Positions 7,824 through 35,297 of a DNA stretch of 64,000 nt are shown here, one piece after another; positions within the stretch are counted from its first letter, which is position 1, and each line of letters begins with the position of its first letter. The position numbers and the translations under genes are program-made. Where the stretch lies: NCBI RefSeq assembly GCF_036195325.1, contig NZ_CP108101.1:6200001-6264000 (forward strand). The letters are read 5' to 3'. A model generated the notes under the pieces. That model saw nothing but the letters and a program-made list of their open reading frames with translations. It was not told where the DNA came from and searched no databases. The stretch is from Streptomyces sp. NBC_00234 (GTDB lineage: Bacteria; Actinomycetota; Actinomycetes; Streptomycetales; Streptomycetaceae).

Positions 7824-8708
7824 TCAGCCCTGGCTGAGGACCACCGAGCGCGTCAGGTGGCGGGGGAGGTCCGGGTCGAGCCCGGCCGCGAGCGCCCGGG
7901 CGATTGCCAGGCGCTGTACGCGCACGAGGTCGGCCAGCGGGTCGAGGCCGCCGTCGATCCAGCGGGCACCGGTGTCGAGCACCTGCTGCTCCAGGCCCTC
8001 CGGCGCGGAACCGAACATCCAGGTCGCCGTCCCGGCGGTGGAGATGCTGATGGGGCCGTGGCGGTACTCCATCGCCGGGTAGGACTCGGTCCAGGACAGC
8101 GACGCCTCCTTCATCTTGAGCGCCGCCTCGTTGGCGAGTCCCACGGTCCAGCCCCGGCCCAGGAACGTGAACTGGGTGCAGTCCAGCAGCCCTTCGGGCA
8201 GCGGCTCGGCGAGCGCCGTCTCGGCGTCCCGTACCGCCTGCTCCGTGTGCAGCCCGAGGTGGGCGCGGAGCAGGGTGAGCACCGTGGTCGCGAACCGCGT
8301 CTGCACGACGGACTGTTCGTCGGCGAAGTCGAGGACGACGACGTCGTCGGCGGCCGTCATGACCGGGGTGTGGGGGTCCGCCGTGAGGGCGACGGTGCGG
8401 GTCGTGCCACTCAGCCGGGTGAGGAGCTCCAGCACCTCGGTCGTCGTGCCCGAGCGGGTGAGGGCGACGACCCGGTCGTACGTGCGCCCGGAGGGGAACT
8501 CCGAGGCGGCGAAGGCGTGGGACTCGCCCTGCCCGGCGTCCTCACGGAGCGAGGCGTACGCCTGCGCCATGTAGAAGGAGGTGCCGCAGCCGACGACCGC
8601 GATGCGTTCGCCGGTGGCGGGCAGGGCGTCCGCCCTGTCACCCGCCAGTTCTGCGGCGCGGCGCCAGCATGCGGGCTGGCTGGCTGTCTCGCTCGCTGCA
8701 AAGGACAC
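7824..8708 (-). CDS. SIS-domain sugar isomerase/deaminase-like protein
   Basis: A 294-residue protein of the SIS (sugar isomerase) superfamily, as in AgaS or the isomerase half of GlmS. The first SIS motif ERIAVVGCGTSFYMAQ and the Ser/Thr phosphate-binding loop ALTRSGTTTEVLELL are clear. A second SIS repeat contains FLGRGWTVGLANEAALKMKE and TESYPAMEYRHGP, typical of GlmS/AgaS enzymes. It should act on a phosphorylated amino sugar in the cytoplasm. The GTG at 8708 is preceded by GGAG with 7-nt spacing. It is divergent from a DeoR-family regulator, the usual arrangement for sugar-phosphate pathways; the true sugar is unknown. Confidence 0.82.
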   Translation of the reverse strand: MSFAASETASQPACWRRAAELAGDRADALPATGERIAVVGCGTSFYMAQAYASLREDAGQGESHAFAASEFPSGRTYDRVVALTRSGTTTEVLELLTRLSGTTRTVALTADPHTPVMTAADDVVVLDFADEQSVVQTRFATTVLTLLRAHLGLHTEQAVRDAETALAEPLPEGLLDCTQFTFLGRGWTVGLANEAALKMKEASLSWTESYPAMEYRHGPISISTAGTATWMFGSAPEGLEQQVLDTGARWIDGGLDPLADLVRVQRLAIARALAAGLDPDLPRHLTRSVVLSQG

Positions 8709-8747
8709 GTCTGCACTCCATCTGGCCGTGGGTGAACTCTGAGTGGC

Positions 8748-8795
8748 ATGCTTGAATTTGCACGTTACAGGCACCCAATGAGCAAAAACAAGCAT
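8748..8795. promoter_or_regulatory. Long inverted repeat in the SIS/DeoR divergent promoter
   Basis: The left arm ATGCTTGAATTTGC (8748-8761) and right arm GCAAAAACAAGCAT (8782-8795) are inverted copies matching at 12 of 14 positions, 20 nt apart. The region is AT-rich against a GC-rich background and lies between divergent genes. It is the natural candidate operator for the DeoR-family protein encoded on the right. Confidence 0.6.
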
Positions 8796-8913
8796 CGGGC
8801 GGCGTGGGGGCGGGGCTGCCGACGGCTTGTGCGACGCTTGCGCTGTCCGGCGCCCGGCGACCGCGTTCCCGGGAAACGTGGTGCCGCAGGCCGGACAGGT
8901 GAGGAGCGCACAC

Positions 8914-9714
8914 GTGGCCAGGGACGCCCGGTGGGACGCATTGCTGGAACTGGTCGGGAAGAACGGCCGGGTGGAGGTCGAGGACGCGGCGGCGGCGCTG
9001 GACGTGTCCGCGGCGACCATCCGCCGCGATCTCGACCAGCTCGCCGAACAGCACCTGCTGACCCGGACCAGGGGCGGCGCCGTAGCCCACGGCGTCTCGT
9101 ACGAACTGGCCCTGCGCTACAAGGCCGGCCGGCACGCCCCGGAGAAGCAGGCCATCGGCCGCGCCGCATCCGAACTGGTCGCCGTGGGCGAAGTGGTGGG
9201 CCTCACCGGCGGCACCACGCTGACCGAGGTGGCCAGGGCGCTGGCCCTGCGCCCGGACATCGTGGGCGAGACGGGGGCGTCGGCCGGCGGCCAGCCCACG
9301 CTGACCGTCGTGACCAACGCGCTCAACATCGCCAACGAACTGGTGATCCGGCCGCAGATCAAACTGGTGGTGACCGGCGGGGTGGCGAGGCCGCAGTCGT
9401 ACGAACTGACGGGACCGCTGGCCAGTGGGGTGATGAGCGAGATCACCCTGGACATCGCCGTGCTGGGCGTGAACGCGATCGACATCGAGCGCGGTGCGTA
9501 CGTCCATCACGAGGGCGAGGCCAGTATCAACAGGCTGCTCGCCGAGCGGGCGCAGCGCGTGGTCGTGGCGGCGGACTCCTCGAAGATCGGCAAGCGGGCC
9601 TTCGCCCGTGTCTGCGACCTCGGGCAGGTCGACGTGCTGGTGACCGACTCCGGCATCACGCCGGAGGCGACGGCCCGTTTCACCGAGGCGGGAGTGAGCG
9701 TCATCGCAGTCTGA
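8914..9714 (+). CDS. DeoR/GlpR-family transcriptional regulator
   Basis: A 266-residue regulator. Residues ~1-57 are the DeoR winged helix: RWDALLELVGKNGRVEVEDA and the recognition helix VSAATIRRDLDQLAEQ, followed by TRTRGGAV. The rest is the DeoR sensor domain (ISOCOT fold), which binds a sugar phosphate, with VGLTGGTTLTEVARAL, AVLGVNAID and VVVAADSSKIGKRAF. The GTG at 8914 has a strong GAGGAG site; the longer in-frame start at 8827 has none. It most likely represses the divergent SIS gene through the inverted repeat between them. Confidence 0.87.
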   Translation: MARDARWDALLELVGKNGRVEVEDAAAALDVSAATIRRDLDQLAEQHLLTRTRGGAVAHGVSYELALRYKAGRHAPEKQAIGRAASELVAVGEVVGLTGGTTLTEVARALALRPDIVGETGASAGGQPTLTVVTNALNIANELVIRPQIKLVVTGGVARPQSYELTGPLASGVMSEITLDIAVLGVNAIDIERGAYVHHEGEASINRLLAERAQRVVVAADSSKIGKRAFARVCDLGQVDVLVTDSGITPEATARFTEAGVSVIAV

Positions 9715-29156: not shown

Positions 29157-30290
29157 TCAGTACGGCTGCACCAGCACGTGCGCCGCGCCGGGGATGCCGA
29201 TCTTCAGCAGCTCGTCCTCCTCCGGCGTGGTCGCCCGGCCGGTCTCCTGCTTGAGCACGGCACGCGACATGTTCTGCACCCACATCGCGCGCGGACGGCG
29301 GCGTGCCTCCCACGCGTCGAGCGCCTCGGCCACCCCGTCGGCGCCGTCCAGCGACTGCGCCAGGACCAGCGCGTCCTCGACGGCCATCGCCGCACCCTGC
29401 GCCAGATGCGGGGTCGAGGCGTGCGCGGCGTCGCCGGCCAGGACGACCCGGCCGAGGTGCCACGGCTCCTCGACCGCCACCTGCGAGATCCGCGAATACA
29501 CCACGGCGGACGGGTCCTTGACGTGGGAGAGGGCCTCGGCCACCGGGCCCCCGAAGCCCGCCAGCCGCTCCCTGAGCTGCTCGTGGGCCAGCTCCGGGTC
29601 CGGCCTGAAGTCCTCGGTCTCGGCGAACACCGCGCCCAGGTACATCAGTTCGTCGGTGATCGGGGTGAGCAGCGCCTTGGCGGCCTGGTTGCCCGTACTC
29701 ATGACGACGCCCTGCACCTCGGGCTGACGCGGCACGGTGACCCGCCAGTTGGCGAATCCGGTGTACTCGGGGCGGTAGCGGTCGCCGTACAGCCGGGTCC
29801 GCAGCGGCGATCCGATGCCGTCGAAGCCCACGACCAGGTCCCAGCGGTCCGCCGAACCGTCGGACAGGGTCACGTCCACGCCCGAACCGTCGTCGGCCAG
29901 CTCGGTGATCGTCGTCCCGAAGCGGACGGGGACACCGGCCGCGGCGGTGGCGTCACCGAGAATCCTCGCGAGCGCGGGGCGCGGGATGCCGTTGTTGGAC
30001 GGTGCGTCGTCCATCCGCGGCTGCGGGATCTTGGCGAGTGTGGCGCCGGCCGGGTCGCAGATGGTCAGCACCTCCCACGGGAAGCCCGCCTCGACGCACG
30101 CGTCGAGGACGCCGATCTCGCGCATGACGTGCAGGGCGTTGGACGGCTGGATGATGCCGACGCCGAGCGCCTCCAGCTCGTCGCGTACCTCGACGACCTC
30201 GACGGTGTGACCGCGCCCGGCCAGCGCGACGGCGAGGGTGAGCCCGCCGATTCCGCCGCCGTGGACGAGGACGCGCAGGGGTGATGCCAT
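29157..30290 (-). CDS. FAD-dependent monooxygenase (PHBH fold)
   Basis: A 377-residue class A flavoprotein monooxygenase. The dinucleotide loop VLVHGGGIGGLTLAVALAG is at the N-terminus, the DG motif DLVVGFDGIGSPLR is in the middle, and the second FAD motif VVLAGDAAHASTPHLAQGAA follows near residue 290. It hydroxylates an unknown, probably aromatic or polycyclic, substrate with NAD(P)H and O2. The ATG has GGAG at 7 nt. It lies 53 nt after cvnD on the same strand, so it may be the output enzyme of the conservon; it is convergent with ridA, 3 nt apart. Confidence 0.85.
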   Translation of the reverse strand: MASPLRVLVHGGGIGGLTLAVALAGRGHTVEVVEVRDELEALGVGIIQPSNALHVMREIGVLDACVEAGFPWEVLTICDPAGATLAKIPQPRMDDAPSNNGIPRPALARILGDATAAAGVPVRFGTTITELADDGSGVDVTLSDGSADRWDLVVGFDGIGSPLRTRLYGDRYRPEYTGFANWRVTVPRQPEVQGVVMSTGNQAAKALLTPITDELMYLGAVFAETEDFRPDPELAHEQLRERLAGFGGPVAEALSHVKDPSAVVYSRISQVAVEEPWHLGRVVLAGDAAHASTPHLAQGAAMAVEDALVLAQSLDGADGVAEALDAWEARRRPRAMWVQNMSRAVLKQETGRATTPEEDELLKIGIPGAAHVLVQPY

Positions 30291-30343: not shown

Positions 30344-30913
30344 TCAGCCGACCGCGGCGGGCAGTCCCATCAGGTGGTCCACCAGCGCCAGCAGCACGTC
30401 CCGGCCGAACGGCCGCTCCCGGACGTCCCCGATCAGCAGGGGGACGTGCGGGTCGAGGTCGAGGGCGGTCCGGATCTCCGCGGGCGTACGGGTGTTGTGG
30501 CCGTGGAAGCAGTTGATCGCCACCACGAAGGGGATGTCGCGGCTCTCGAAGAAGTCGATCGACGCGAAGCTGGTGTCGAGCCGGCGGGTGTCGGCGATCA
30601 CGACGCCGCCGAGCGCGCCGTTTACCAGGTCGTTCCACATGAACCAGAAGCGCTCCTGGCCCGGGGTGCCGAAGAGATAGACCACCAGCTCCGGACTGAC
30701 CGTGATCCGGCCGAAGTCCAGGGCCACGGTGGTGGTGTCCTTCCGGCCGACACCGGCCAGGTCGTCCACACCGATGCTCGCCTTGGTCAGGTACTCCTCG
30801 GTGCGCAGGGGCGCGACCTCGCTGACGGCGCCCACCAGAGTGGTCTTCCCGACACCGAAACCGCCGGCTATGAGGATCTTGACGGCGGCAGGCGCCGTCT
30901 GACTGTCAGTCAT
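30344..30913 (-). CDS. cvnD: Conservon GTPase CvnD
   Basis: A 189-residue small Ras-like GTP-binding protein of the conservon type. The P-loop GGFGVGKTT is at residues ~17-25, the switch II region reads FGTPGQERFWFMW, and the base-recognition segment is atypical (AINCFHG instead of NKxD), as usual for CvnD/MglA relatives. With CvnA-C it forms a membrane-associated complex analogous to eukaryotic GPCR signalling. It starts 6 nt after cvnC. Confidence 0.9.
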   Translation of the reverse strand: MTDSQTAPAAVKILIAGGFGVGKTTLVGAVSEVAPLRTEEYLTKASIGVDDLAGVGRKDTTTVALDFGRITVSPELVVYLFGTPGQERFWFMWNDLVNGALGGVVIADTRRLDTSFASIDFFESRDIPFVVAINCFHGHNTRTPAEIRTALDLDPHVPLLIGDVRERPFGRDVLLALVDHLMGLPAAVG

Positions 30914-30919
30914 CTTGGC

Positions 30920-31327
30920 TCAGAGTCTCCGGAGTCCGTCACGTACGGCGGCCAGCAGGCCCATGTTCGCCCCGCCGGAAGCCCGGGCCACCGAGAGCGG
31001 GGCACGGGCCAGCAGCAGGCCCTGCGCGACCAGATCGGCCAGCAGGATCTTGGTCACCGAGACCGGCAGACCGAGGTCGGCCGAGACCTCGGCGACCGCC
31101 GCCGGGCGGCGGCAGCGGTCCAGGATCATGCGGTGCTCCGGCTGGAGCCGGCCCGGCCGCAGGGGCGCACCGTGCTCGTCCACCGGGTTCTGCGCGGTGC
31201 TCAGCACGGTGATGAGGGTGAAGTCGTCCCGCTCGGGCGCGGTCCGGCCGCGGGTGATGGTGTACGGGCGGACCATGGTGCGCGCGCCGTCCTCCTCCGG
31301 CTCCTCCTCGTGCCAGTACGGACTCAC
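30920..31327 (-). CDS. cvnC: Conservon DUF742 protein CvnC
   Basis: A 135-residue DUF742 protein: VRPYTITRGRT at the N-terminal third, RLQPEHRMILDRCRRPAAVAEVSADLGLPVSVTKILLADLVAQGLL as a winged-helix-like region. CvnC proteins bind CvnD and CvnB. I chose the GTG at 31327, which overlaps the cvnB stop as GTGA, giving translational coupling. The first ~18 residues are acidic. Confidence 0.9.
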   Translation of the reverse strand: MSPYWHEEEPEEDGARTMVRPYTITRGRTAPERDDFTLITVLSTAQNPVDEHGAPLRPGRLQPEHRMILDRCRRPAAVAEVSADLGLPVSVTKILLADLVAQGLLLARAPLSVARASGGANMGLLAAVRDGLRRL

Positions 31328-31761
31328 ACCCGCTGCCCGTCCCCGGTACCGAAGGCGTCGAACTCTCCGCGCACCGGTGCGCTGAGCTTCTGGCCCACCT
31401 GCTGGACGAGGTTGTGCATGGCGAGGGACATCACCTCGGCGTCGACCTCCTGGGAGGCGATGACGGCCAGGTGCGTGCCCTGTCCGGCGGTGATGATGAA
31501 GAGCCAGAGGTCGGCCAGTTCGACGATGACCTGGTGCACGGACCCGCCGTCGAAGAGCTGCCCGACACCCCGGGCGAGGCTCTGCTGCCCGGTGCAGATG
31601 GCGGCCAGCCGCTCCGCGTCGGCGCGCTCGATGGTGCGCGAATGGCTCACCACCAGCCCGTCGTCGGAGAGCAGGACGGCGTTCAGGGTCTCGGCCACCG
31701 AGTCCACCAAACCGTCGAGCAGCCAGTCGAGATCCTGGAGGGTGGCGGTTGTGCGTGTCAT
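31324..31761 (-). CDS. cvnB: Conservon roadblock/LC7 protein CvnB
   Basis: A 145-residue roadblock/LC7-domain protein (DLDWLLDGLVDSVAETLNAVLLSDDGLVVSHS, IVELADLWLFIITAGQGTHLAV). Roadblock proteins act as scaffolds or GTPase-activating factors for the partner small GTPase, here CvnD. The ATG overlaps the cvnA stop (ATGA). The Ala/Val core and overall length are typical. Confidence 0.9.
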   Translation of the reverse strand: MTRTTATLQDLDWLLDGLVDSVAETLNAVLLSDDGLVVSHSRTIERADAERLAAICTGQQSLARGVGQLFDGGSVHQVIVELADLWLFIITAGQGTHLAVIASQEVDAEVMSLAMHNLVQQVGQKLSAPVRGEFDAFGTGDGQRV

Positions 31762-34604
31762 GACCGGTCTTCTTCTCTCGTCGGGAGGGGGAATGGGGGA
31801 GGGCCGGACGGCGTCGGCGACGGCGGCTCCTCCGCCGTGCGGGCCGCGCGCGACCTGCGCTGGAACGCCCCGATCGCGGCGCCGGCCCGGCGGGGAACCG
31901 GCCGGAGCAGCGGGTTCTCGTCCCATTTCGGGCGCCTGGGCGCGGTGGGCCCGGCGACCGGGTCGATGCGGAGCTCGTCCACCAGGCTGGCCTGCCTGAC
32001 CCGGCGCGGAAGGGGCGGCTCCGCGTCGGCCCGCGCGGCGTCGGGCGCACCCACCGGAAGGGCGGGCCGCTCGGCCGCGTACGGACCCGGAACGGGCTCC
32101 TCGTACGGCACGGGCTCCGCGTACGGGCCGGGCACCGGCTCCGCGTACGGTTCCGGCTCCGCGAACGGCTGGTCCACGACCGCGAACGGGTCGTCGGACG
32201 GCACGTACGCGGTCTCCGGGCCCGGCACCGGGTACTGCCCCGCCGCCGTCATGTACGGCCGCTCGGCCGGTACGTACGCGTCCTCGTCCGCCGCGTACGG
32301 CTGTCCGGGCTCCGCGTACGGAGTCTCGGGGGCGAGGTGCGAGGGCTCCGGAGCGGCATACGTGTTCTCGGCGCCGACATACGCGGTCTCGGAGCTGACG
32401 TAGGGCTGCTCGGGCTGCTCGAAGGCGCCGTCCTGCCCGGCGTACGGGTCCTCTTCGGCGGTGTGCGGCTGCGGAGGAGCGCTGTACGAGGAGGACCGCG
32501 CGGCACGTTCCCGCTGCTCCGGCCATCCGGACAGGGCGGTGACACCCGCCATGGCCTGCCCCTGCACACGGGTGGGCAGGGTGCCCGGAACCTGGGCGGC
32601 GGGCGCGGCGGCCGGGGCGGACGCCACGGCGGTGGGCACGCCCACGGGGCGGGAGCCCGGATCGGCGACCGTCAGCTCGTCGGGGACGAGCACGACGACC
32701 CGGGTGCCGCCGTACGCGGACGGCCTGAACTCGACCCGCAGACCGTACTGGTCGGCGAGGCGGGCGATCACATAGAGGCCCAGCCGGATGTCGTCGGCGT
32801 GCGCGAGCACGTCCATCCGGGGCGGACGGCTCATCAGCTCGTTGGCCGCGGCGAGTTGTTCCTCGTCCATGCCGAGCCCGCGGTCCTCGACCTCGATGGC
32901 CAGCCCACGGCTCACCCGGGCGGCCCTGACCTCCACCGGGCTCGGCGGCCGGGAGAAGGACAGCGCGTTCTCGATCAGCTCGGCGAGCACGTGGGAGACG
33001 GGGCCGATGGCACGCTCGGCCAGCCACGGGGCGCCGTCGAGGTCGAGGACCACACGGCGGTAGTCCTGGACCTCGCCCTGCGCCGAACGCATCACGTCCA
33101 GCAGCGGTACCGGCTTGCGCCAGCGGCGGTGCGGCGACCCTCCGGCGAGGATCACCAGATTCTCCTCGTAGCGCCGCAGCCGGGCCGTGAGGTGGTCGAG
33201 GTCGTAGAGACCCTCCAGCACCTCGGGGTCCTCGTGCTTGCGCTCCAGCTCGTCCAGCTTCTTCAGCTGCTGCCCGATCAACTGCTGCGTACGGCGGGCG
33301 ATCCGCTGGAGCAGCCGCTCGAATCCGCGGTGCTGGTCCGCCTGGCCGACCGCGGCCTGCAGGGCGCTGGTGCGCGCCAGGTTGAGTGCGTCACCGAGCT
33401 GGGTCAGCTCGTCGGACCTGGCGCCGCCGCTGTCGCTCTCGATGGCGCGGGCCTCGGCCTCGACGTCGATCTTCTCGCCCCGGCCGAGCCGCTCCACGAC
33501 CTCGGGCAGGGCCTTCTCCAGCTCCTCGGCCTGCACCTGGAGGCGGCCGATCCGGTTCCGGAGGTTGCGGGTGAGGCGCCAGGTGGTCAGCACGACGGCG
33601 ATCACCGCGAGCAGACCGATCACGGTGGTGAGGACCATCTTGAGCAGCAGGGACATGACGCTGCCCTTGCCCTCCTCGACCACCAACGCGGTCCGGTGCT
33701 CCAGCAGTTCCACCAGCGGGGGAGTGACGCCGTCGATCGCCTCGCGCCAGGTCTTCTCCTCGGCGCCGAGCTCGACGAACCCCCGGGCGTCCGGGGCGGC
33801 CGGACGCAGGATCTCCTTCTCGGCCTGCGTCTTGGCCTTCCAGGCCGCGCTGCCGGTGATCTCCTGCCACATCTCCTGCTCGTCCTGCGGCAGGTAGGGG
33901 AGCACCTTGGTGGTGGACTGGAAGGACTGGCCGGAGACCGCCTCGCGGATCTGCTGGAGGTCCTCGGAGCTCAGTCGGCCCTTCGGCCACCCACGGGCCA
34001 GGATCGCGTCCGAACGGGAGATCATCTCCTTGGTCCAGAAGAGGTCCACGAGCGGCTGGGACAACGTGGTCACCTGGCCGTTGTCCACGTGGCTGAGCGC
34101 GGCGAACAGCTTCAGGTCCACGGCGATCAGGTCGGTGTAGTAGTCGTAGACGGCCTTCTGCCGGTCGCTGCCGCCCTCGTCGACGAGGGCGCGCCGGTCG
34201 GGCAGCCGGTCGATCGAGTCCCGGGCCAGACCCACCGCCTCGCGGATCTCGGCCGGGGCGTCCTCGGTGGTCACGTCCGAGAGCGATCTGAAGGTGCGGA
34301 TCGCCTCGTCGGTCAGCACCCGCTGGCGCCGCAGCGCCTCGGTGGAATCCCCGGGGCGGGCCAGAGCCTCGGCGCTCAGCCGACGCTCCTCCTGCAGGTT
34401 GTAGTAGACGATGTTGGACGGCTGTCCGGCCTTCTCGGCCAACTGTCCCTGGGCCGCCTGACGCTGGAAGTCCAGGAATGTCTGGCCACTGGTCACGGCC
34501 CAGAGGGCGGCCAGGGCGACACCGGGGACTACGGCCAGTACGAGGAGGGCTGTCCGCAGCGACAGTGTGGTCGAGTCGGTCCGCCGTGACGCGCGCGTGC
34601 GCAG
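31758..34604 (-). CDS. cvnA: Conservon sensor kinase-like protein CvnA (CTG start proposed)
   Basis: About 948 residues. An N-terminal membrane helix (LRTALLVLAVVPGVALAALW) is followed by a NIT-type extracellular sensor (~residues 40-310), a second membrane helix (VLTTVIGLLAVIAVVLTTW), a HAMP-like linker, a coiled region and a HATPase domain (HVLAELIENALSFSRPPSPVEV, IEVEDRGLGMDEEQL). The last ~260 residues are a Tyr/Pro/Glu/Ala-rich repeat tail. The usual GTG at 34496 would delete the first membrane helix. No ATG, GTG or TTG lies upstream in frame, but a CTG at 34604 has AAGGAG exactly 6 nt before it. Confidence 0.85.
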   Translation of the reverse strand: MRTRASRRTDSTTLSLRTALLVLAVVPGVALAALWAVTSGQTFLDFQRQAAQGQLAEKAGQPSNIVYYNLQEERRLSAEALARPGDSTEALRRQRVLTDEAIRTFRSLSDVTTEDAPAEIREAVGLARDSIDRLPDRRALVDEGGSDRQKAVYDYYTDLIAVDLKLFAALSHVDNGQVTTLSQPLVDLFWTKEMISRSDAILARGWPKGRLSSEDLQQIREAVSGQSFQSTTKVLPYLPQDEQEMWQEITGSAAWKAKTQAEKEILRPAAPDARGFVELGAEEKTWREAIDGVTPPLVELLEHRTALVVEEGKGSVMSLLLKMVLTTVIGLLAVIAVVLTTWRLTRNLRNRIGRLQVQAEELEKALPEVVERLGRGEKIDVEAEARAIESDSGGARSDELTQLGDALNLARTSALQAAVGQADQHRGFERLLQRIARRTQQLIGQQLKKLDELERKHEDPEVLEGLYDLDHLTARLRRYEENLVILAGGSPHRRWRKPVPLLDVMRSAQGEVQDYRRVVLDLDGAPWLAERAIGPVSHVLAELIENALSFSRPPSPVEVRAARVSRGLAIEVEDRGLGMDEEQLAAANELMSRPPRMDVLAHADDIRLGLYVIARLADQYGLRVEFRPSAYGGTRVVVLVPDELTVADPGSRPVGVPTAVASAPAAAPAAQVPGTLPTRVQGQAMAGVTALSGWPEQRERAARSSSYSAPPQPHTAEEDPYAGQDGAFEQPEQPYVSSETAYVGAENTYAAPEPSHLAPETPYAEPGQPYAADEDAYVPAERPYMTAAGQYPVPGPETAYVPSDDPFAVVDQPFAEPEPYAEPVPGPYAEPVPYEEPVPGPYAAERPALPVGAPDAARADAEPPLPRRVRQASLVDELRIDPVAGPTAPRRPKWDENPLLRPVPRRAGAAIGAFQRRSRAARTAEEPPSPTPSGPPPFPLPTREEDRS

Positions 34605-34619
34605 GGCAAGCTCCTTGAC

Positions 34620-34635
34620 GTGAGGCCAGCCTCAC
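34620..34635. promoter_or_regulatory. Perfect palindrome next to the cvnA ribosome site
   Basis: GTGAGGC-CA-GCCTCAC has perfect 7-bp arms around a 2-bp centre. It ends 3 nt before the AAGGAG Shine-Dalgarno of cvnA (34611-34616). It could be a repressor operator in the divergent promoter, or an mRNA element affecting translation of the CTG-initiated gene. Confidence 0.5.
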
Positions 34636-34865
34636 GACTGGTCAAATCCGGTGAGAACTTCGACACATGGATATTAGTCACACTGCAAAAAAGAAAAGAA
34701 AGTGGGCTCACATGTGCAACACGACACGCCCACAACTTCTGCACCAACCTCCCGGGATGTCGGCTTTGCTCAAGTCGCGGGGTGTGGGTTCCGGGGAGAG
34801 GCTGGAAGGGTCCGTACGGAAGTGCGGAGCACGGAGCCCCCACGAGCCGCCCCAGGAGATCCGCG

Positions 34866-35297
34866 GTGACCAGCGAACCGCCCCCGCCCCCTGCGACCAG
34901 GTCGTACGACGGTGAAGGCATCACCGTCAGCTACGACGCCCACCGCTGCCTGCACGCGGCCGAATGCGTACGGGGGCTGCCGTCCGTCTTCGAGGTGGGG
35001 CGCAAGCCGTGGATCGTGCCGGGGGACGCCTCCGCCGACGAGATCGCCGAGGTCATCCACCGCTGTCCCAGCGGTGCCCTCCAGTACCGCCGCAGCGACG
35101 GCCTCCCGGACGAGGTCCCCGATGTGCCGACGCAGGTGTCCCTCCACTCCGACGGCGTACTCCACCTGCGCGGAGACCTCGAAGTGGCCACCCCCGAAGG
35201 TCCCCGCCGGGAGACCCGGGTGATGCTGTGCGGCTGCGGCAGGACCGGGAACACCCCGTACTGCGACCACAGCGGGGACTGCGCCCGGCACATTTGA
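34866..35297 (+). CDS. Two-domain iron-sulfur protein (Fer4_19 + altered CDGSH)
   Basis: A 143-residue protein. Residues ~15-80 are a divergent single-cluster ferredoxin domain like E. coli YjdI: SYDAHRCLHAAECVRG, then FEVGRKPWIVPG and RCPSGALQYR. Residues ~115-143 are a CDGSH-type domain with C122-x-C124-x2-T-x3-P-x-C133-D134. The usual histidine ligand four residues after the last cysteine is Gly137; a histidine instead occupies position 135. Both domains suggest redox or Fe-S transfer in the cytoplasm. The GTG has AGGAG at 7 nt. It is divergent from the conservon. Confidence 0.82.
   Translation: MTSEPPPPPATRSYDGEGITVSYDAHRCLHAAECVRGLPSVFEVGRKPWIVPGDASADEIAEVIHRCPSGALQYRRSDGLPDEVPDVPTQVSLHSDGVLHLRGDLEVATPEGPRRETRVMLCGCGRTGNTPYCDHSGDCARHI

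Follow-up and report, generated by a model that had tools for sequence, protein, structure and literature searches.

A conserved CTG codon as the probable translation start of the conservon kinase gene cvnA in Streptomyces and Kitasatospora

The question raised by this locus is where translation of a conservon kinase gene begins when the first canonical start codon of its reading frame lies inside the first membrane helix, and whether a CTG, a very poor start codon in bacteria, may serve instead. The window referred to throughout is the whole stretch of DNA that was analysed, 64,000 nucleotides from Streptomyces sp. NBC_00234 (NZ_CP108101.1, positions 6,200,001 to 6,264,000), and positions are counted from its first letter.

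The conservon and the start site of cvnA

The genes of the locus are as follows.

31758-34604, reverse strand: cvnA, sensor-kinase-like, 948 codons from the CTG, with a NIT domain at residues 69-292, HATPase_c at residues 536-642 and hydrophobic segments at residues 12-40 and 314-346
31324-31761, reverse strand: cvnB, Roadblock/LC7 (PF03259), its ATG overlapping the cvnA stop as ATGA (31761-31758)
30920-31276, reverse strand: cvnC, DUF742 (PF05331)
30344-30913, reverse strand: cvnD, small GTPase-like, ATP_bind_1 / P-loop (PF03029)
29157-30290, reverse strand: FAD-dependent monooxygenase-like gene (FAD_binding_3), directly downstream of cvnD

The preliminary description had named the gene as the conservon kinase cvnA, and both its domains and its neighbours bear this out. 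HATPase_c and NIT score 44.8 and 121.8 bits in CvnA, and PF03259, PF05331 and PF03029 are found in adjacent genes on the same strand in the order cvnB-cvnC-cvnD; the locus is a complete conservon cvnABCD. The ATGA stop/start overlap between cvnA and cvnB is an arrangement typical of translational coupling. The monooxygenase-like gene possibly belongs to the conservon operon. The C-terminal tail of CvnA (31758-32650, reverse strand) is long and disordered-looking, with Pro-Tyr-Ala-Glu repeats (PYAEPxxPYA...).

The features around the putative start of cvnA are the following.

34632-34634, reverse strand: in-frame TGA that closes the cvnA frame 9 codons upstream of the CTG
34611-34616, reverse strand: Shine-Dalgarno AAGGAG, 6 nt from the CTG; conserved in orthologues, with a spacer of 7 nt in L073 and 5 nt in L077
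34605-34610, reverse strand: spacer CTTGCC between AAGGAG and CTG, giving a TTG at -5 in the window
34602-34604, reverse strand: putative CTG start codon, the same codon in 56 of 56 distinct orthologues
34494-34496, reverse strand: GTG, codon 37, the pick of standard start rules; it comes after most of the first helix and is not kept as a start in the orthologues

Reading of the window upheld most of what had been described for this site, namely the AAGGAG placed 6 nt before the CTG, the lack of any ATG, GTG or TTG upstream in frame before a stop, and the loss of the N-terminal helix from a protein begun at GTG 34496. The upstream stop is present as claimed, at 34634-34632 where 'near 34640' had been given. 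Read back from the CTG, the codons before this TGA are GCC, CTT, GAG, AAG, GTC, CAC, CCT, TGG and GGC, and no canonical start is found in frame in the window between the TGA and GTG 34496. After the CTG come CGC ACG CGC GCG TCA CGG CGG and then the hydrophobic helix. GTG 34496 is residue 37 counted from the CTG and the first hydrophobic segment already begins at residue 12, so that a start at this GTG would cost the protein its first membrane helix; the two-helix anchor around the NIT sensor is obtained only with a start at or near the CTG.

Shuffling predicts 0.25 occurrences of the motif AAGGAG-N6-CTG and the window has two, so that by itself the motif is weak evidence; it is the conservation in all 56 distinct orthologues that lifts the CTG beyond chance. 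The second match, AAGGAGGCGTCGCTG (8111-8097), lies within an ordinary ATG-started frame (7824-9020) and was taken as chance.

Conservation, selection and origin of the CTG

Orthologues were collected as tblastn-anchored loci matching the first 201 residues at no less than 60% identity, giving 65 loci of which 56 were distinct (27 from Streptomyces and 29 from Kitasatospora, the latter label being taken from loci identical to named Kitasatospora records), and no locus at or above 60% identity was dropped for want of the Shine-Dalgarno-CTG block. A one-mismatch pattern search of 393 Streptomyces genomes had returned about as many hits as its reversed control, and protein anchoring was used instead. 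About 20 of the 296 Streptomyces genomes sampled carry a member of this orthologue group, and no annotated orthologue above 60% identity was found in plasmid records. One Streptomyces genome holds a likely decayed copy (G170:C1:2045546-2045734) in which some 63 CvnA residues are matched at 78% identity.

In all 56 distinct orthologues the codon is CTG, preceded at 5-7 nt by a purine-rich Shine-Dalgarno site (mostly AAGGAG at 6 nt), and ATG, GTG or TTG occupies the start codon position in none of them. An ATG or GTG, expected at the orthologous codon in the preliminary description, was consequently not encountered, and a sequencing error, raised there as a possible source of the CTG, is ruled out by the identical codon in 56 distinct orthologues of two genera. 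A canonical start is absent between the upstream stop and the CTG in 34 of the 56, and from the upstream stop as far as mid-helix in 15 (the window and 14 others). The upstream stop of L133, L135 and L141 is a TAG within the Shine-Dalgarno site itself (cTAGGAG), three codons before the CTG, and in L133, L134 and L135 more than 100 codons downstream are free of a canonical codon, the first in L134 being codon 137. Both marks of a conserved non-canonical start were found, the same codon in all the orthologues and, in the window and these 14 others, no canonical in-frame start giving a complete protein.

Ten different distances, from 17 to 43 codons, separate the Shine-Dalgarno-CTG block from the helix, and all of them keep the frame, as would be expected if the intervening stretch is translated. 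In codons 2-9 pN/pS was 0.99 in frame and 0.69 and 1.74 in the shifted frames, values that come from a short and constrained stretch; the substitutions give no clear codon signature, and the case for translation of these codons therefore rests on the open in-frame arrangement.

ATG, GTG and TTG are each a single base change away from CTG. Changes were counted on a tree for which the codons downstream of the N-terminal region were used. None fell on codon 1, as against 3-12 (mean 7.1) on the 16 further columns in which 95% or more of the sequences have leucine, and the chance of zero changes at codon 1 was about 0.0008 by a naive Poisson estimate. Since the CTG was never improved even though canonical codons are one base off, selection for the CTG is the best explanation; the weak start is apparently maintained by purifying selection. 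In a survey of start-codon switches in close triplets, a change to AUG was seen for 4.0% of ancestral GUG and 1.7% of ancestral UUG codons, with almost no change to CUG (PMC5622118).

The CTG genes form one clade (SH-aLRT 99, in a quick tree with root not inferred). Its nearest outgroups (L078, L079, L088, L091 and L092) begin ATG-GCN-CTG-CGN (MALR...) and others begin GTG-GCA; the CTG start is thus homologous with the third codon of the relatives with ATG-GCN-CTG. Alanine is still encoded at codon -1 in 49 of the 56 CTG-clade orthologues, and an out-of-frame ATG stands at -5 in 28 of them (NATGCCCTG vs ATGGCNCTG). Both look like relics, and this fits a deletion of 1 nt in ATGGCNCTG. Judging from these alignments, an ancestral ATG-GCN-CTG start has apparently lost 1 nt, leaving the out-of-frame ATG behind. 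The weak start would then have arisen once, in the ancestor of the Streptomyces and Kitasatospora CTG genes, with the old codon 3 taking over.

The leader, competing explanations and a proposed mechanism

Two further elements are found upstream of the start site.

34626-34641, reverse strand: hairpin CCAGTC-GTGA-GGCTGG in the leader, with compensatory changes; some 9 nt separate it from the Shine-Dalgarno site that follows
34671-34680, reverse strand: promoter-like block TGACTAATAT (TGACTARTATC in orthologues), from the alignment

In the leader hairpin, four of the six pairs are changed on both sides among the 49 aligned orthologues with homologous sites, and the covariation score was 0.384; shuffles gave 0.178, none of the 500 reaching the observed score, and slid controls lay far below it. 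The hairpin is a possible regulatory element not in Rfam; a comparison of positions 34400-34900 with the Rfam covariance models gave no match at E up to 1. The TGACTARTATC block lies about 70 nt upstream of the CTG in most orthologues and is strongly conserved with no recognisable -35 hexamer, and a scan for the sigma-70 consensus and terminators found nothing. The position of the block predicts an mRNA leader of about 60 nt, and with this hairpin-bearing leader and a conserved Shine-Dalgarno site the cvnA mRNA is probably not leaderless.

The invariance of the CTG could be due in part to RNA structure or to the Arg codon 2. In the fullest form of this explanation the CTG is the start, while its constancy is a by-product of an overlapping RNA or DNA element in which AGG of the Shine-Dalgarno site pairs with CCU of CCUG, followed by a GCGC-ACGC-GCGC hairpin. 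RNAalifold does predict a further stem over the start codon with this AGG/CCU pairing and a GCGC stem, CTGCG is invariant as a block in the orthologues, and a start-covering hairpin matters in FIB rep (PMC11983097). None of the pairs in the start-codon stem shows changes on both sides, however, the stem is short and could arise from Arg-rich codons alone, and the hairpin that does covary is the upstream one, which together make this explanation unlikely.

The remaining explanations move the start elsewhere and are much less probable still. Initiation at codon 14, which reads ATG-TCG-(C/T)TG in most Streptomyces orthologues and would have to use CTG or TTG in others, would keep the helix, which lies downstream of it, and an ATG is indeed present there in 26 of the 56; the other 30 have CTG (as in the window), CTC, TTG, CTT or ATC, codon 14 is preceded by a Shine-Dalgarno site in none of the orthologues, the conserved in-frame Shine-Dalgarno-CTG block lies upstream of it and the starts of the outgroups also lie far upstream, leaving this a very improbable start. 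Translation from GTG 34496, the standard prediction, with a protein that lacks the first helix, has in its favour that this is the first canonical start of the window's open reading frame. Orthologues beginning at this position had been named earlier as an outcome that would speak against the CTG, but at the homologous codon 41 of the 56 have GTC and 11 have GTG; moreover, a conserved helix and an Arg-rich N-terminus would go untranslated and yet be open in all 56, and the NIT sensor domain would be left with no N-terminal anchor, so that such a start is hardly credible. Equally hard to credit is initiation at the out-of-frame codon at -5, ATG in half of the orthologues and TTG in the window, followed by a frameshift into cvnA: that codon is not conserved, about half having CTG, CAG, ACG, ATC, CTC, TAG or TTC, and it lies 1 nt from AAGGAG, too near for normal initiation. 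With neither of the two objections foreseen in the preliminary description sustained, its proposal of a CTG start is supported, and the comparative evidence makes us confident that cvnA truly begins at the CTG at 34604-34602.

Initiation at this codon may be envisaged as follows. The AAGGAG site would hold the 30S ribosome and set the CUG in the P site, where initiator fMet-tRNA would pair with it at two of three positions and with low efficiency. Decoding of CUG by fMet-tRNA follows from established bacterial initiation, and CvnA very probably begins with Met rather than Leu. Near-cognate starts are read by initiator fMet-tRNA in bacteria, with complexes on CUG less stable than on any other codon of the NUG series (PMC11497404); CTG initiation in E. 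coli is about 10 times below TTG (Hecht et al., as cited in PMC11983097), and a mycobacterial selection gave no enrichment of CTG at the leadered start (0.03%; PMC4633059). The weak start would keep the level of the membrane kinase CvnA low, possibly in dependence on IF3, and, via the ATGA overlap, perhaps also limit cvnB; how many copies of CvnA there are for its Roadblock and GTPase partners may be important. That purifying selection keeps the CTG since it sets such a level of CvnA, and perhaps of cvnB, is the account that we favour by a little. More tentatively, the whole may be pictured as a CUG that originated by a 1-nt deletion and has been held across the divergence of Streptomyces and Kitasatospora as an IF3-sensed brake, perhaps tuned by the hairpin, on the receptor kinase of a G-protein-like operon, a composite for which we would put the chances somewhat short of even.

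Comparison with known systems

Gene finders exclude CTG as a start, and the CvnA proteins of this group are probably annotated without the first membrane helix or without the first 13 residues. CTG has also served as the negative class in training a start predictor (PMC12752654). The conserved in-frame Shine-Dalgarno-CTG block offers a simple search for more such genes. A CTG unchanged in 56 orthologues indicates that even a start this poor can be retained in evolution, and cvnA offers a natural test case for the question whether low dosage or IF3 control is what weak starts are selected for.

The conservons cvn1-13 of Streptomyces coelicolor (PMC13343842) have the same cvnA-B-C-D operon, with a kinase-like CvnA (TM-NIT-TM-HATPase), a Roadblock protein, a DUF742 protein and a GTPase. 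The open-licence literature yielded no conservon described with an unusual start codon, which is weak evidence of absence.

The closest case by codon is the rep gene of FIB in F-like plasmids, the CTG start of which was proven by N-terminal sequencing and a CTG-to-CTC mutation; it had been misannotated at a GTG 14 codons downstream, and low expression is thought to be the purpose (PMC11983097). It shows that initiation at CTG can be sustained, at a low level, by a good Shine-Dalgarno site. Like cvnA it has its CTG behind a good ribosome binding site, but it is an enterobacterial plasmid replication initiator with a proven start, whereas cvnA encodes a chromosomal membrane kinase of Actinomycetota, with a CTG that is maintained across two genera and known from sequence. 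The closest case by host is Streptomyces sigR, in which a GTC start repressed by IF3 is conserved in 32 of 34 species (PMC5472188). In the present genome sigR (L145, at about 5.369 Mb) has the GTC start AGGAGGTGGGTCCGGTC / AGGAGGTGGGTCCGGTCACTGGG with the site AGGAGGTG present. It shares with cvnA a conserved non-canonical start, a strong Shine-Dalgarno site and the place of a regulatory gene at the head of a coupled operon; it differs in using GTC instead of CTG and in being cytoplasmic, and IF3 repression, shown for sigR, is proposed by analogy for cvnA. The infC gene, which was also located in this genome, encodes IF3 and is autoregulated from an AUU/ATC start according to the description given in PMC5472188. 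Like that of cvnA, its start is deeply conserved and non-canonical, and it is used as a regulatory device, but it deviates in the third base (AUU/AUC) and serves the self-feedback of a housekeeping gene. Set beside these systems, the CTG of cvnA is a new example, and a deeply conserved one, of a device that is already known but very rare.
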